A DNA stretch of 64,000 bases from Pseudoscardovia suis (GTDB taxonomy: Bacteria > Actinomycetota > Actinomycetes > Actinomycetales > Bifidobacteriaceae), in the NCBI RefSeq assembly GCF_002797875.1, contig NZ_PGFC01000001.1, positions 1 to 64,000 on the forward strand. Reading direction: 5' to 3'. Positions 1 through 47,352 of this stretch are shown here, piece by piece. The first letter of the stretch is position 1. Each line of letters starts with the position of its first letter. Both the position numbers and the translations under genes were made by a program. Under the pieces are notes generated by a model. The model was not told the DNA's origin. It saw nothing but the letters and a program-made list of their open reading frames with translations, and searched no databases.

Positions 1-17
1 CCATGAAGACACGGGAA

Positions 18-172
18 CCAAGTTCGACACCACGACACGCCTACGGCCACAACGCCTGCGGGGATTATAAGCAATAACTTTGGTTCCTATATGCCACCAA
101 GTTCGACACCCCGACACGCTTACGGCCACAACGCCTGCGGGGATTATAAGCAATAACTTTGGTTCCTATATG
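18..172. repeat. Two direct copies of a 76-bp sequence
   Basis: Copies lie at 18-93 and 97-172, offset by exactly 79 bp, and differ at only about two positions. Each contains GGGGATTATAAGCAATAAC followed by CTTTGGTTCCTATATG, an AT-rich patch in a GC-rich context that looks promoter-like. It lies upstream of the antitoxin/toxin pair. A 14-base part, ACTTTGGTTCCTAT (77-90 and 156-169), recurs at 29822-29835. Function is unknown; a duplicated promoter or an attachment-site remnant are both possible. Confidence 0.85.
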
Positions 173-2173: not shown

Positions 2174-2495
2174 GAGGGTGCGCGATGGTGCGCCCTCGGT
2201 GGCAGTTAGGTCCCATCGGGTGGCCTTATTGCGGTCTATCTGCGGTCGAGGGTGCATAATAATGCATCCTCGACCGCGGATTATGGTGTGGGTGGCGGTC
2301 GGCGCGGGGGTAATCCGGGTTGAGGGTGCACAATAATGCATCTTCGGCCGCGGATTATGGTGTGGGTGGCGGTCGGCGCGGGGGTAATCCAGGTTGAGGG
2401 TGCACAATAATGCATCCTCGGCAGCAGATTAGGGTGTGGGTGGCGGTCGGCGCGGGGGTAATCCAGGTTGAGGGTGCACAATAATGCATCCTCGG
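2174..2495 (+). repeat. Five-unit array of palindromes with 74-bp pitch (family A, copy 1)
   Basis: Palindromic units start at 2174, 2248, 2322, 2396 and 2470, an exact 74-bp spacing. The core is GAGGGTGCA, 6 nt, then TGCA(C/T)CCTC. In the second unit pairing extends outward to GCGGTCGAGG (2242-2277). The last three inter-palindrome segments are nearly identical to each other (TATGGTGTGGGTGGCGGTCG and onward). It lies just past the 3' end of the minus-strand transporter gene. The same palindrome and pitch recur at 4170-5305. Confidence 0.9.
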
Positions 2496-2533: not shown

Positions 2534-4051
2534 CTAGCGCTTCGGCTGAAATCCGCGCTGCGCTCGCTGCCAGCTGTGTTTATCACGGTCCCACATGACC
2601 AGCAGAATCGCCACCAGTGCAACCGTGTACAGCACCGCCAGAATCGGCATCAGGGCAGCGTAGCGATGCGCCGGATCCGAAGCATGCGAAACCACGAACG
2701 ATGCAAGCTGGTTGCCGGATAGCCCTGCGAACGCCCATGCGCTCAACGCAAGTCCGTGCACGGTCGATACGGACGCCATGCCGAAATGTTGTTCCAGCAG
2801 CACTGGCAGCGTGGAGAAGCCCCCGCCGTAGCCTGCGTTCACAAGGAACAGCATGATGAGAATCATCCACATGGTCGCGTTGTCAATCGAATGGAACGCC
2901 ACCTGCATGGCGCACACGGCGATCGACATGACGAAAATCACCACATAACTGGTTTCGCGCCGGCGGCAATGGTCCGAGAGGGTAGAGAACCCCAGACGTC
3001 CGGCGGCGTTGAACACTGCGTCCACCGCCAGCACCATGCTGATGAAACCTGCCGTGGCAGCTGCGAACGCCGTGGCATCAAGCCCTGCGAATCGCGGCAT
3101 TGCGGCGAGTGCATCATGGAGGATGTCTTTCTCTTGCGAAATCAGCGCCAGACCGCACGTGATGTTGAGGTAGAACGCCACCCAGATGGCCCAGAAGACC
3201 GGGCGCCGCATCACTGTGCGCCTGCGTACGCGCGCCGCCGCGGAATATGCGTAGCCGGCGGGGCGGCGAATGAGCAGGAATCCCAGGAACATCATGACCG
3301 CATACACGGCAGCCAGCACATAGAACATGTTGGTGAGGCCAACGGAAGAAATAAGCCAGGTCATGACGGGGCTTGCGATGGCCTTCGCCAATCCGAAGCC
3401 TGCGACGGCGATGCCCGTGGCGAGACCCTTGTTGTCGGAGAACCATAGCATGAGGTTCTTCACCGGCGTGAGATAGCCTACGCCCAGGCCGACTCCCATG
3501 ATCGCGCCGTAGCAGATGAACACGCCGGGCAGCCATCCGGCTGCGATGCTCGCGCCCGTTCCGGCGAATCCTGCGACGAAGCATACAAGGCTGATGAGCG
3601 CGGATCGGCGGATGTCCTTCTCCACCACGGGGCCGAGGAACGCGGCGGACATGCCAAGGAAGAAAATCGCCAGGGAGAACGCCCACTCGATGGTGCCGGG
3701 TGCCGTGTGCATCTGGTCGGCGATGAGCTGCTTGAACACGCTCCAGCAGTACACGGTGCCGATGGAGACGTGAATGAGCAGCGCGGGGACGACGGCACGC
3801 ATCCAGCGGTTGTTGAGCGGGTCGCGTGTCGGCTGCTGGGGTTGGTGGGGAGCTTGGGGTTGTTGGTCTGCTTGGGCTGCTTGTTGAGCTTGTTGAGCTT
3901 GTTGGGGAGATTGTTGAAAGACCAGGGTCTGTGCTTGTTGGGGGGGCGGATGGTGACGTGTGCTGACGTGTATTGCGCGCCATGTATTCCTCTCCGCAGC
4001 GATGGCGGAGATGTCGGGGCTAACACCTGCGCATCTCTGCGGGCACGACAC
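2534..4051 (-). CDS. OFA-type major facilitator transporter, 5' end probably frameshifted
   Basis: Twelve-span MFS protein resembling the oxalate/formate antiporter (OFA) family. The membrane domain starts near RWMRAVVPALLIHVS and continues through about 410 residues. OFA members exchange small organic anions; the substrate here is unknown. The uninterrupted frame begins with a GTG at 4051 that has no ribosome site. A much better start, GGAGAGGAAT then ATG at 3983, is in another frame and would join this one if the run of seven Gs at 3939-3945 lost one base. In that state the protein would begin MARNTRQHTSPSAPQQAQ and carry a Gln-rich cytoplasmic leader of about 65 residues. An internal ATG at 3802 would give a typical 422-residue OFA protein but lacks a ribosome site. 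The gene is flanked on both sides by family A palindrome arrays. Confidence 0.85.
   Translation of the reverse strand: MSCPQRCAGVSPDISAIAAERNTWRAIHVSTRHHPPPQQAQTLVFQQSPQQAQQAQQAAQADQQPQAPHQPQQPTRDPLNNRWMRAVVPALLIHVSIGTVYCWSVFKQLIADQMHTAPGTIEWAFSLAIFFLGMSAAFLGPVVEKDIRRSALISLVCFVAGFAGTGASIAAGWLPGVFICYGAIMGVGLGVGYLTPVKNLMLWFSDNKGLATGIAVAGFGLAKAIASPVMTWLISSVGLTNMFYVLAAVYAVMMFLGFLLIRRPAGYAYSAAARVRRRTVMRRPVFWAIWVAFYLNITCGLALISQEKDILHDALAAMPRFAGLDATAFAAATAGFISMVLAVDAVFNAAGRLGFSTLSDHCRRRETSYVVIFVMSIAVCAMQVAFHSIDNATMWMILIMLFLVNAGYGGGFSTLPVLLEQHFGMASVSTVHGLALSAWAFAGLSGNQLASFVVSHASDPAHRYAALMPILAVLYTVALVAILLVMWDRDKHSWQRAQRGFQPKR
3939..3945. repeat. Seven-G homopolymer tract, candidate phase-variation switch
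   Basis: GGGGGGG on the plus strand (seven Cs in the coding sense) lies 38 bases inside the frame that starts at the well-formed ATG 3983. Six or nine Gs would fuse that start to the transporter frame; seven, as here, puts it out of frame. A sequencing length error in the tract would produce the same picture. Confidence 0.7.
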
Positions 4052-4169: not shown

Positions 4170-5305
4170 GAGGGTGCACTTCCTTGCGCCCTCGGTGGTG
4201 GTTGTGCTGCCGTGCAAGTGGGTTGGGCCGTGCAATTGCTATTGAGTGCGCACAATGCTGCACCTTCGGCGGCAGTTGGATGGTGGGACGGCGGCCGGAG
4301 TGGGGACAAACCCGGTCGAGGGTGCACTGTTGTGCACCCTCGGGGCAGATTGGTGTTGCTGGGCTGGGTGCTCGGGGTGCTAATCGCGGTCGAGGGTGCA
4401 CTTCCTTGCGCCCTCGGCGGTGGTTGTGCGGTTGAGGCGGCGGTAGGGGCGGGGTATTCTTGGTTGAGAGTGCATTTCTGTGTGCCCTCGGGGCGTTTTG
4501 CTGTTGCTGGACTTGGTGTCTGGAGCCCTAATCGGTGTTGAGGGTGCGGTGTTGTGCGCCCTCGGTGGCGGTTGTGCTGCCGTGCGGGTGGGTTGGGTCG
4601 TGCAATTGCTGTTGAGGGTGCATAATGCTGCACCTTCGGCGGCAGTTGGGTGACGGAGTAGCGGCAGGAGTGGGGCAGACCCGGTCGAGGATGCACTGTT
4701 GTGCACCCTCGGCGTCGGTTGTGCGGTTGAGTTGAAGGTTGGGGACAGGGTGTTCTTGGTTGAGGGTGCACTCCTGTGCACCCTCCGTGGTGGTGGGATT
4801 CTGTTGAGCGGCCTAGCGTTGGGTTATCTGCGGTCGAGGGTGCGCTTCCTTGTGCCCTCGGTGGCGGTTGTGCTGCCGTGCAGGTGGGTTGGGTCGTGTA
4901 ATTGCTGTCGAGTGTGCGCAATGCTGCACCCTCGGTGGCAGTTGGGTGACAGAGTAGCGGCAGGAGTGGGGGTGAATCCGGTTGAGGGTGTATTCCTGTG
5001 CACCTTCGGTGGTGGTTGGATTCTGCTGGGTGGTCTGGTGCGGGTCTATCTGCTGTCGAGGGTGCACTTCTGTGCGCCCTCAGGGTGGGTTGCCGTTGCG
5101 GGGCTGGGTGCTTGGGGTGTTAATCGTGGTTGAGGGTGCATTCCTGTGCACCCTCGGTGGTGGTTGGGCTCCATTGAGTGGCCTGGTGCAGAGGTATCTG
5201 CTGTCGAGGGTGCGCTTCCTTGCGCCCTCGGCGGTGGTTGTGCTGCCGTGCGGGTGGGGTGGGACGTGTAGTTGCTGTTGAGGGTGCGCTCCCGTGATCC
5301 CTCGG
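4170..5305 (+). repeat. Sixteen-unit array of palindromes with 74-bp pitch (family A, copy 2)
   Basis: Units start at 4170, 4244, 4318, 4392, 4466, 4540, 4614, 4687, 4762, 4836, 4910, 4984, 5058, 5132, 5206 and 5280; every step is 74 bp except one 73/75 pair. The 26-bp core is GAGGGTGCA, 6 nt, TGCACCCTC, GG. The 48-bp segments between cores fall into about five sequence classes used repeatedly in mixed order. No gene lies inside the array and open frames through it are repetitive. It runs from the 5' side of the transporter gene to the lysS leader. It is not a CRISPR: segments recur and no cas gene is present. Confidence 0.92.
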
Positions 5306-5454: not shown

Positions 5455-5532
5455 ATGGCGCTGTTGAAGATTCGCAAGGCGCCAGCGGCCTACTACAAGG
5501 CATACACCGAGCAGCGAGGATATTGTGGCTAA
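5455..5532 (+). CDS. Possible 25-codon leader ORF overlapping the lysS start
   Basis: The frame ATG (5455) to TAA (5530-5532) encodes MALLKIRKAPAAYYK and ten more residues. A weak AGAGG lies about 12 bases upstream. Codon choice is normal for this genome. It contains four Lys/Arg among the first eight residues and ends 8 bases inside lysS, so its translation would bring ribosomes to the lysS GTG. It could be a leader peptide for coupling or lysine-dependent attenuation, or simply chance. No database comparison was possible. Confidence 0.35.
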   Translation: MALLKIRKAPAAYYKAYTEQRGYCG

Positions 5533-7216
5533 CACTAACGAAAACGATAAGAATCAGCCTGCATCAACCGCGGCGGCATCGGCAACCGCGGGAACCCCTA
5601 CCACCGAGGAAACCAAGGAGCAGCAGACTCGCAGCAGCATCGACCATGCGCAGCTGCTGCTCGACCAGGACGCCGCCATCGCCCAGCGCATTGATGCCGG
5701 AGCAGAACTCGATGACGCCATCAACGCATCCGACCCTGAAGGTCATTCCGAGCAGGTGCAGATGCGCGTGGCCAAGCGTGCACTCATGCTTAAGGAAGGC
5801 ATCCAGCCTTACCCGGTCACCCTTGATGTGACCGCCACGATTCCGCAGGTGCGCGCCAAGTACGAGAACGCATTGCAGGCGGGTGACGAAACTGAGGACG
5901 TTGTGGGAATCGCTGGCCGTGTGATGTTCCTGCGCAACACGGGCGGCCTGTGCTTCGTGCAGCTCGCGTCGGGCGACGGCACCACGATCCAGGGCATGAT
6001 TTCCAAGAAGGAGGTCGGTCCGGATTCCCTCAAGCGTTTCAAGCAGCTCGTTGATTTGGGCGACCACCTGTATGTGCGTGGTCGTGTGATTTCCTCCAAG
6101 ACCGGCGAGCTGTCGGTGTTCGCTACCGAGTGGGCCATTGCCGCGAAGGCGCTGCAGCCGCTTCCGGCCCTGCACAAGGAGCTCAATGAAGACACCCGCA
6201 CGCGCAAGCCTTACATCGGCATGATCGCCGACCCGAAGATCCGCGACATGGTGCGCAATCGTTCGAAGGCAGTTTCGTCGCTGCGTCACACTTTCGAAAG
6301 CCATGACTTCCTTGAGGTCGAGACGCCGATGCTGCAGACCATTCATGGTGGCGCTGCGGCGCGCCCGTTCACGACGCACATGAATGCGTTCGACCTTGAC
6401 CTGTACCTGCGCATCGCGCCGGAACTGTTCCTCAAGCGCTGCCTCGTAGGCGGCATCGAGCGCGTGTTCGAGATCAACCGTGACTTCCGCAACGAGGGCG
6501 TGGATGCCACGCATGCGCCGGAGTTCACGATGGTCGAGGCTTACCAGGCCTACGGCAATTACGATACGATTGCTGCGCTCACCAAGGAGCTCATCCAGAC
6601 GACCGCAATGGATGTGTTCGGTAGCCACAAGGTGACTTTGCTCGACGGCACGGAATACGATTTCGGTGGCGAATGGAAGCAGATGAGCATGTATGATTCC
6701 CTCTCCGAGGCGCTCGGGGAAGAGATCACGCCTGAAACGCCGCAAGAGAAGCTGGCGCAGATTGCCGACAAGCTCGATGTGGAGCGCGATGAGGTCGAGA
6801 ACCGTGGCAAGCTCGTGGAGCACCTGTGGGAGCATTTCTACGAGGACAAGCTTTACGAACCGACCTTCGTGCGCGATTTCCCGGTCGAGACGTCGCCGCT
6901 GGTTAAGGGTCACCGTTCCAAGCCGGGCGTGGTTGAGAAGTGGGATCTGTATGTGCGCGGCTTCGAGCTGGCGACCGGCTATTCCGAGCTCAACGATCCG
7001 GTGGTGCAGCGTGAACGCTTCCTCGACCAGGCGAAGGATTCGCTGGCGGGCGATGAGGAGGCTGGCGACATCGATGAGGACTTCCTCGAGGCGCTGGGCG
7101 TGGGCATGCCGCCGGCAGGTGGCATGGGCATGGGCATCGACCGACTGCTCATCGCGTTGACGGGTGCCACGATCCGCGAGACGATCACGTTCCCGCTGGT
7201 CAAGCCGCTGCGCTGA
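5525..7216 (+). CDS. lysS: Lysyl-tRNA synthetase (class II)
   Basis: Charges tRNA-Lys with lysine in the cytoplasm. The 563-residue protein has an N-terminal extension of about 60 residues rich in Ala, Thr and Glu, then an OB-fold anticodon-binding domain (about 115-225, including GIAGRVMFLRNTGGLCFVQL). The class II catalytic core follows: motif 1 around FLEVETPMLQ, motif 2 FRNEGVDATHAPEFTMVEAY at about 320 and motif 3 GMGMGIDRLLIALTG at about 532. The start is the GTG at 5525, preceded by a weak GCGAGGA. Core lysyl-tRNA synthetases are about 500 residues, so the excess is the N-terminal extension. It stands alone, with the 74-bp palindrome array and a possible leader ORF upstream. Confidence 0.96.
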   Translation: MANTNENDKNQPASTAAASATAGTPTTEETKEQQTRSSIDHAQLLLDQDAAIAQRIDAGAELDDAINASDPEGHSEQVQMRVAKRALMLKEGIQPYPVTLDVTATIPQVRAKYENALQAGDETEDVVGIAGRVMFLRNTGGLCFVQLASGDGTTIQGMISKKEVGPDSLKRFKQLVDLGDHLYVRGRVISSKTGELSVFATEWAIAAKALQPLPALHKELNEDTRTRKPYIGMIADPKIRDMVRNRSKAVSSLRHTFESHDFLEVETPMLQTIHGGAAARPFTTHMNAFDLDLYLRIAPELFLKRCLVGGIERVFEINRDFRNEGVDATHAPEFTMVEAYQAYGNYDTIAALTKELIQTTAMDVFGSHKVTLLDGTEYDFGGEWKQMSMYDSLSEALGEEITPETPQEKLAQIADKLDVERDEVENRGKLVEHLWEHFYEDKLYEPTFVRDFPVETSPLVKGHRSKPGVVEKWDLYVRGFELATGYSELNDPVVQRERFLDQAKDSLAGDEEAGDIDEDFLEALGVGMPPAGGMGMGIDRLLIALTGATIRETITFPLVKPLR

Positions 7217-29190: not shown

Positions 29191-29251
29191 ATCACCCGCT
29201 GTGTGTTTTTCTCGCCCGTTGTGCGGATATGCATAGTCGTATAGGCCCCAC

Positions 29252-29728
29252 AACCTCCGTTTTCGGCGAGTGGATCATGGTTCGCCGATGGTGGAGGTTA
29301 GGTCCCCGTTTTGGAGGTGTCTAACTTCCGTCTTCGGCGATTCTCGGATTGTGTCGCCGAAGAGGGAGGTTAGGAGTCTGTTTTGGGAGTGTGTATCTTC
29401 CGTCTTCGGCGATTCTCGGATTGTGTCGCCGATGAGGGAGGTTAGGGGTTCGTTTTGAGGGTGTGTAACTTCCGCTTTCGGCGACCCCTTGATGGTTCGC
29501 CGATGGTGGAGGTTACGACGGGTTGGGGTGTCGTCTATCTTCCGTTTTCGGCGAGTGGATTATGGTTCGCCGATGGCGGAGGTTTGGGGTCGGTTTCGGG
29601 GGTCTGTAACCTCCGTCTTCGGCGATTCTCGGATTGTGTCGCCGATGAGGGAGGTTAGGGATCCGTTTTGAGGGTGTGTAACTTCCGTCTTCGGCGAGTG
29701 GTTGATTGGGTCGCCGATGACGGAGGTT
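29252..29728 (+). repeat. Seven-unit palindrome array, about 71-bp pitch (family B, copy 1)
   Basis: Units start at 29252, 29323, 29395, 29467, 29537, 29608 and 29680 (steps 70-72 bp). Each has an 18-base arm AACCTCCGTCTTCGGCGA-like, a 13-15 base variable centre (two types, GTGGATTATGG and TTCTCGGATTGTG), and the complementary arm TCGCCGATGAGGGAGGTT-like. Units are joined by a G/T-rich linker resembling GGGGTTCGTTTTGAGGGTGT. No gene is present. The array lies between the candidate RNA and the amidohydrolase gene. The same family recurs at 46928-47231. Confidence 0.9.
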
Positions 29729-29884
29729 AGGGGTTTGTTTTTGGGCTACCGGATACCCGTACCTCAACCCCAGCACGCCCACGGGCGCAGCACCTGCGCG
29801 AATCGAGAATCAGAGACGATGACTTTGGTTCCTATGCGCCGCGGGTTACGATTGGTTGCGTCATCGAAGCAGGCAAGGAGAACC

Positions 29885-46927: not shown

Positions 46928-47231
46928 TCGCCGAAGACGGAGGTTAGGGGGTTCGTTTTCATGATCTGTATCCTCCGTCTTCGGCGAGTGGTTGTTGGGT
47001 CGCCGATGGCGGAGGATAGGTCGGTTTGAGGAATCGGTCTGTCCTCCGTGTTCGGCGAGTGGTTGGTGGTATCGCCGATGGTGGAGGTTTGGGACTTGTT
47101 TTCGGGGTGTGTAACTTCCGTGTTCGGCGACTCTCGGATTTGTCGCCGAAGAGGGAGGTTAGGTTCCCTTTTTAAGGGTCTGTATCCTCCGTGTTCGGCG
47201 ACCCTTGATTTTGTCGCCGATGGCGGAGGGT
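46928..47231 (+). repeat. Palindrome array, about 71-bp pitch, four units plus a half unit (family B, copy 2)
   Basis: A right half-arm at 46928-46945 is followed by full units starting at 46970, 47041, 47113 and 47184. The arms are ATCCTCCGTCTTCGGCGA-like and TCGCCGATGGCGGAGGAT-like, around 13-15 base centres. Arms, centres and G/T-rich linkers match those at 29252-29728 in the same orientation. It fills the gap between the divergent membrane-protein and TPR-like genes. Confidence 0.9.
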
Positions 47232-47352
47232 AGGGGTGGATTGGGGGACCGCGGAGGTATCTGTTCCGCGGCCGTTCCGGTAATTCCAATGGTCAGGGTT
47301 CGCTGTGCGCCATGAGCTGATTCGCCAACGGATGTCGGCGAAAAAAGAGACA

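Follow-up and report, generated by a model that had tools for sequence, protein, structure and literature searches.

Upstream of lysS, the window analysed here (64,000 nucleotides, positions 1 to 64,000 of a Pseudoscardovia suis contig) carries sixteen palindromes that start almost exactly every 74 bp. Such a pitch is close to seven turns of B-DNA, and the locus therefore raises the question of whether the palindromes are held on one side of the helix for a purpose or whether the pitch is an accident of tandem duplication.

Palindrome arrays in one genus

The array occupies the gap between two divergent genes, a minus-strand gene for an MFS transporter and lysS, which is read from the plus strand. 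Its palindromes belong to a family that we call F1. The features of the window that the argument uses are the following.

2174-2493, plus strand: second F1 array, five palindromes at a pitch of exactly 74 bp, 3' of the MFS gene
2534..3983 (ORF open to 4051), minus strand: MFS transporter gene, between the two F1 arrays
4170..5303, plus strand: F1 array of 16 palindromes, GAGGGTGCA-N6-TGCACCCTC, 74-bp pitch with one 73/75 pair, the G/T-rich strand being the plus strand
4194..4243, plus strand: example of a 50-bp spacer between two F1 palindromes, its length kept across arrays and its central 28 bp not conserved
5525..7216, plus strand: lysS (lysyl-tRNA synthetase), downstream neighbour of the 4170-5303 array
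29250..29730, plus strand: array of family F2, alternating half-sites TAACYTCCGTCTTCGGCGA / TCGCCGAAGACGGAGGTTA, repeat pitch 70-72 bp
46928..47233, plus strand: second F2 array, half-sites TAACYTCCGTCTTCGGCGA / TCGCCGAAGACGGAGGTTA, pitch 71-72 bp

The units of the long array start at 4170, 4244, 4318, 4392, 4466, 4540, 4614, 4687, 4762, 4836, 4910, 4984, 5058, 5132, 5206 and 5280, so that all steps are 74 bp except for 73 and then 75 bp around 4687. The first-pass annotation had reported 16 palindromes at this pitch with one slip, spanning 4170-5305. Count, pitch, slip and start are confirmed, whereas the last palindrome stops at 5303. The shorter F1 array and the two F2 arrays had escaped that annotation. 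The pattern GAGGGTGC-N8-GCACCCTC is exact in 3 of the 16 units and has one to three mismatches in the others. At up to three mismatches the window holds 21 F1 matches, five of them in the shorter array, against 0.61 expected (maximum of 3 in 100 shuffles).

Arrays of this kind are numerous. Pseudoscardovia is a small group of gut bacteria, and sampled DNA from four species of the genus, including the window genome, P. radai and UBA2724, contained over 60 arrays. They represent at least nine palindrome families, are without exception intergenic and have up to 24 sites. Besides F1 (74 bp) and F2 (71-72 bp), the families are F4 (TTCAGTGTGAGCGTTCGCTCACACTGAA, 73 bp), F5 (TTCATGGCGAGGATTTTTCGCCATGAA, 72 bp), F6 (GGGTG-TGGCGG-CACCC, 73 bp), F7 (ACTTTTGCGGCC-N4-GGCCGCAAAAGT, 74 bp), F10 (AAACCTATGC-N24-GCATGGGTTTGCGA, 94-95 bp), F11 (AACRGTGCCTCTCACTGGCA...GCCAGTGAGRGYGACTGTT, 84 bp) and family G (GTGYGAG-TGGCGG-CTSGCAC), in which the outer arms vary and the spacings are 42, 52, 62, 73, 105 and 116 bp. 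A further array, in genome G173, was seen only as a lag of 84-85 bp. Sites of F4, F6, F7 and F10 were called by seed patterns because iterated PWMs drifted into other families or into noise; when dyads were sought without regard to family, the criterion proved too strict for degenerate sites and yielded too few spacings. Two tandem repeats without palindromes were also seen: a 79-bp unit present twice at the contig start (window positions 17-172), off the helical ladder described below, and a purine-rich 95-bp repeat in P. radai (L012:2966-3534), intergenic by the gene calls used.

About 1.4 Mb of this one genus was scanned, in stretches. The genomes are drafts, in which repeat copy numbers may be collapsed and spacings within a contig ought to be reliable. 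Gene calls come from a simple home-made finder, and gene names from inspection of the translations. The window genome has at least 114 F1 sites. Among 84,980 species, the exact F1 site was found only in P. radai and in the Bifidobacteriaceae MAG UBA2724, in a search whose database may lack entries for the window genome or for one very close to it. Across 189 Bifidobacteriaceae genomes, real F1 counts were confined to the window's genus, with stray single or double hits elsewhere, so the expectation that the palindrome would be found in Bifidobacterium failed. No comparable arrays were present in about 250 kb sampled from other Bifidobacteriaceae genera. The exact site was absent from viral contigs, which speaks against a phage origin of F1. 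A search of the open, non-subscription literature returned no description of such arrays.

Spacings quantised in helical turns

Family-specific site calls gave a first set of 401 consecutive dyad distances, which fall at 42, 50-54, 61-63, 71-76, 83-86, 94-96, 105-107, 114-117 and 124.5 bp. The gaps between these classes are empty apart from one call, a spurious site that cuts a 117-bp spacer into 92 and 25 bp. The class means follow spacing = 10.53 n - 0.3, a slope of 10.53 bp per turn. A second sample, from DNA fetched after the pattern had been seen, gave 52, 73-74, 94-95, 106, 116 and 126 bp together with a single 59, where a 7-bp duplication can be seen to have lengthened a 52-bp spacer; it included a new family with a pitch of exactly 84 bp in two arrays. 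An autocorrelation scan of the second-sample DNA returned non-coding lags of 52, 73, 74, 84 and 95 bp.

With F2 left out, 451 of the 456 pooled spacings (65 arrays) deviate by no more than 2 bp from n x 10.5 bp, with n = 4 to 12, although arrays within one genome share descent and the independent observations are therefore effectively fewer than 65. Among spacings other than seven turns, 82 of 84 (22 arrays) meet this 2-bp tolerance, the misfits being 50 and 59. When each array contributes one spacing, R is 0.81 (Rayleigh p ~5e-7; 0 of 20000 uniform simulations were as strong), a statistic that treats arrays as independent, which is partly true, and that we trust because the spread covers families and species. 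In contrast, coding tandem repeats from this DNA have lags that keep to a 3-bp period rather than to one of 10.5 bp (R = 0.05). The phasing is looser for F5 (72 bp) and F2 (71-72 bp, about 0.2 turn short of seven turns), since these pitches are 1.5-2 bp under 73.5. The half-site starts of the window's F2 arrays alternate between 31-32 and 39-40 bp, or about 3.0 and 3.8 turns, a phasing looser than that of the other families.

Could an ordinary satellite produce this picture? On such an account palindromic units were tandemly duplicated, the pitch was inherited and the helical fit of 74 bp is accidental. Higher-order repeats of 370, 148 and 222 bp indeed show tandem duplication, 74 bp is common to most F1 arrays, and units are more alike within an array, with a spacer identity of 0.49 against 0.35 between arrays. 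A satellite does not account, however, for unrelated families and irregular arrays keeping integral-turn spacings (42, 52, 62, 73, 84, 95, 105, 116, 125). Junctions between differing families keep them too, at 62.5, 72.5, 73, 73.5, 74, 83.5 and 124.5 with a looser 75.5, and are usually in phase where families meet within one P. radai array. Nor does it account for indels of 3-8 bp being nearly absent while those of about 10, 21 and 40 bp occur. We regard the satellite account as quite unlikely. The original proposal that 74 bp stands for seven turns, with all palindromes on one face, could not be decided from the 4170-5303 array by itself, since a unit that is duplicated in tandem passes on its pitch; it gains its support from the spacings of the other arrays (those just listed, apart from 73). 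The spacings are quantised in helical turns, and the idea of phasing is supported.

Successive deviations from the ladder are uncorrelated along the arrays. As they are not compensated, the constraint is local, between neighbours, and a global lattice with error correction is ruled out. The slip that was described as corrected in the next unit is so for the 73/75 pair, but such correction is not a general rule. Helical phasing is usually demonstrated with engineered spacer mutants at a single promoter. Here it has been repeated by evolution across several palindrome families and four species as a clean 10.5-bp ladder, and repeats that are easily written off as satellites can bear a measurable geometric constraint.

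Site structure, turnover and a predicted dimer chain

The profile of 216 F1 units consists of the palindrome, a TTA/TAA box about 21 bp (about two turns) to each side of the dyad, and a 28-bp spacer centre without conservation. Compared between arrays, spacer centres have an identity of 0.35, where composition predicts 0.29, yet the length stays 74 bp. The 68 edge sites of F1 arrays are complete, with 8.9 of 10 matches in the outer half, and no half-site was found one pitch beyond F1 array edges. The arrays are therefore made of N sites and N-1 spacers and are not tandem inverted-repeat elements; the complete edge palindromes rule out an array of tandem mini-transposons, or MITEs (TIR elements).

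The arms of a site vary independently. In 298 distinct F1 sites we counted 21 compensatory pairs with 18.5 expected, and 2633 Watson-Crick pairs with 2639 +/- 10 expected from arms shuffled within arrays; G-T and A-C mismatches match the prediction from composition. Independent arms are the behaviour of a homodimer operator, whereas covariation would be expected of a hairpin under selection. Family G differs in having outer arms of symmetric subtypes (47 vs 20), which is compatible with an RNA or a non-RNA reading.

It had also been suggested that the locus is a transcribed hairpin array, and an array of hairpins or terminators acting as RNA has some features on its side. Either strand gives a better fold than its shuffles, with the larger effect on the G/T strand (z -4.5 vs -2.9). 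Many arrays start 20-100 nt past a stop codon, and between tandemly oriented genes it is usually the coding strand that is G/T-rich (19 to 5). The suggestion is disfavoured, however, because the arms do not covary and RNA has no need for B-DNA phasing: the stem compensation of a structured RNA array is not seen in F1, and a 10.5-bp spacing is without reason in RNA. A search of the window found no Rfam family, and arrays also lie between divergent genes. To this explanation we give the least credence. Phased cruciforms or bends in the DNA itself, with no specific binder, would account for many different palindromes being equally good and mutually in phase. Selection for cruciforms should nevertheless yield compensatory changes, a signal that F1 does not show; the half-sites keep specific conserved bases beyond mere symmetry (F1 profile), and we see no helix-scale ground for cruciforms to share one face. 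Such a purely structural array appears highly improbable.

Arrays occupy convergent, tandem and divergent gaps alike, so a pure promoter role is unlikely, and their neighbours are ordinary genes such as lysS, tyrS, ilvC and those of proline biosynthesis. At orthologous positions, with one or both neighbours matched, the other species had the same family on 17 gene sides, another family on 7 and no array on 25, and an intergenic position that holds F1 in one species may be occupied by F2 or F10 in a second. The position upstream of lysS has F1 arrays in the same orientation in the window genome and P. radai. Locus L081 has F2 in the window genome and F1 in P. radai (L012), with both flanking genes orthologous and a similar pitch. 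A 1.5-kb intergenic region with an F1 array (L005:3604-5118) corresponds to an 80-bp gap without an array in P. radai (L144), which is a gain or a loss. Contigs of G172 (UBA2724) and G173 stop 0.2-0.5 kb upstream of lysS (L045, L069; L044, L070), probably because the array breaks short-read assembly. At L023:1465-3251 of the window genome, a single-copy IS605-type tnpA/tnpB pair has an F2 array on each side, at distances of about 1.3 and 2.2 kb; none of the three further genomes of the genus has the pair.

The main rival places the origin of the ladder in array formation. A recombinase or transposase acting at one palindrome would add, move or excise a unit only if two sites synapse on the same helical face, and no cellular function would be needed. 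A natural length ladder with a period of about 10 bp (10.2 bp) exists in the IES of Paramecium, where it is attributed to the excision complex (PMC3464196). These are, however, eukaryotic excised elements with terminal repeats, whereas the arrays here end on complete sites and are not tandem copies of an element so bounded. The size of the palindrome (11+6+11 bp) resembles that of recombinase sites, and the gain, loss and replacement of arrays between species would also suit this origin. Against it, the only Y1 transposase is the single IS605-like copy, missing from three array-bearing relatives, no recombinase is among the genes read beside G arrays, and recombination between in-phase neighbours should, by our reasoning, delete in-phase spacers and not preserve them. 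We consider a recombinase origin unlikely.

On balance, the array at 4170-5303 is probably one of many chromosomal clusters of predicted homodimer binding sites that are selected to lie on one face of the helix. A palindrome would bind one dimer, one protomer per 9-11 bp half-site, and the TAA/TTA boxes further out, some two turns away from the dyad, may aid DNA bending. Dimers on adjacent sites would make contact over a short spacer, bent or looped, that would have to span an integral number of turns (7 as a rule, with 4 to 12 observed) and would be almost unconstrained in sequence. The several palindrome families may be read by different proteins or paralogues, and that several proteins would be needed counts against the explanation. 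With arrays gained, lost and replaced at intergenic positions, the outcome would be a compacted or bridged nucleoprotein segment between genes, with a putative role in chromosome organisation, insulation or silencing. The candidate role of a phased protein-binding array proposed at the outset is thus supported in its phasing by the spacings; the binding protein, the contact between dimers and the chromosomal role are what we infer. From the ladder one would expect a dimeric DNA protein, sequence-specific and able to form contacts, that acts at many points of the chromosome in a single clade; the exact site sequences are a bait for it.

A symmetric dimer does not explain the strand polarity of the arrays or their coherent orientation. 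The G/T content of one strand is 0.65-0.68 in arrays against 0.53 in other intergenic DNA of the same strand. On contig C1 of the window genome the sampled arrays are on the plus strand up to 480 kb and on the minus strand from 606 kb, tracking the majority gene strand. Coherence over hundreds of kilobases is also seen on P. radai C31; an exception to the pattern lies at C4:55 kb (L007:4468-5623). A plain leading-strand bias is ruled out, as arrays are far richer in G/T than same-strand intergenic DNA and the third-position skew is flat. A more tentative possibility is that the arrays are genus-specific, chromosome-wide intergenic nucleoprotein anchors. These would be dozens of arrays in which the helical phase and not the sequence is invariant and palindromes turn over, with one-sided dimer chains folding or insulating the chromosome, oriented with the main direction of transcription or replication. 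We know of no described bacterial repeat class or nucleoid system that acts as phase-invariant, sequence-variable anchors.

Comparison with known systems

Cooperativity at integral-turn spacing is established for lambda repressor and lac loops. The likeness to lambda repressor and other cooperative operators is that dimers whole turns apart bind cooperatively via a small loop; such operators, however, come in twos or threes at a promoter, whereas here there are dozens of multi-site arrays in all types of gap.

RNA hairpins, tandem mini-transposons, REP/RAYT, CRISPR and TIGR-Tas fit poorly. A CRISPR array is ruled out, as the repeats are degenerate, the spacers are similar within arrays and the neighbouring gene calls include, by inspection, no cas-like genes. 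TIGR arrays also have tandem palindromic units, with tigRNAs of 36 nt and multiples of 72 (PMC12045711), but the arrays here are dispersed, share their unit repeats and have no unique guides; TIGR-Tas is ruled out by the absence of a Nop-domain (PF01798) Tas protein from all four genomes. REP and BIME elements are likewise short intergenic palindromes in high copy, sometimes clustered or in tandem. They differ in that the spacings here are quantised to helical turns and the arrays reach 24 sites. With respect to the REP tags (PMC3733652), F1 is without GTAG/CGTC and F2 carries CGTC inside its arm and not as an end tag. A RAYT-type Y1 transposase is absent from three of the four array-bearing genomes, and the single Y1_Tnp of the window genome adjoins tnpB (IS605 type), which argues against a REP/RAYT system.

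The sopC locus (parS-F) of the F plasmid consists of twelve repeats of 43 bp, and every one of them contains a 16-bp inverted repeat (PMC9178275). It resembles the arrays in its tandem units with a dimer-bound palindrome (SopB/ParB) and in a pitch of 43 bp that is about four turns, the dimer being predicted here from geometry. The difference is that sopC is one plasmid locus beside sopAB, whereas here there are many chromosomal arrays with many unrelated palindromes and several spacings; no partition genes (parAB) were seen beside the arrays, whose neighbours at dozens of loci are housekeeping genes. The arrays belong neither to sopC-type loci nor to REP/BIME elements, of which sopC is the nearest in geometry and REP/BIME the nearest in genomic style.
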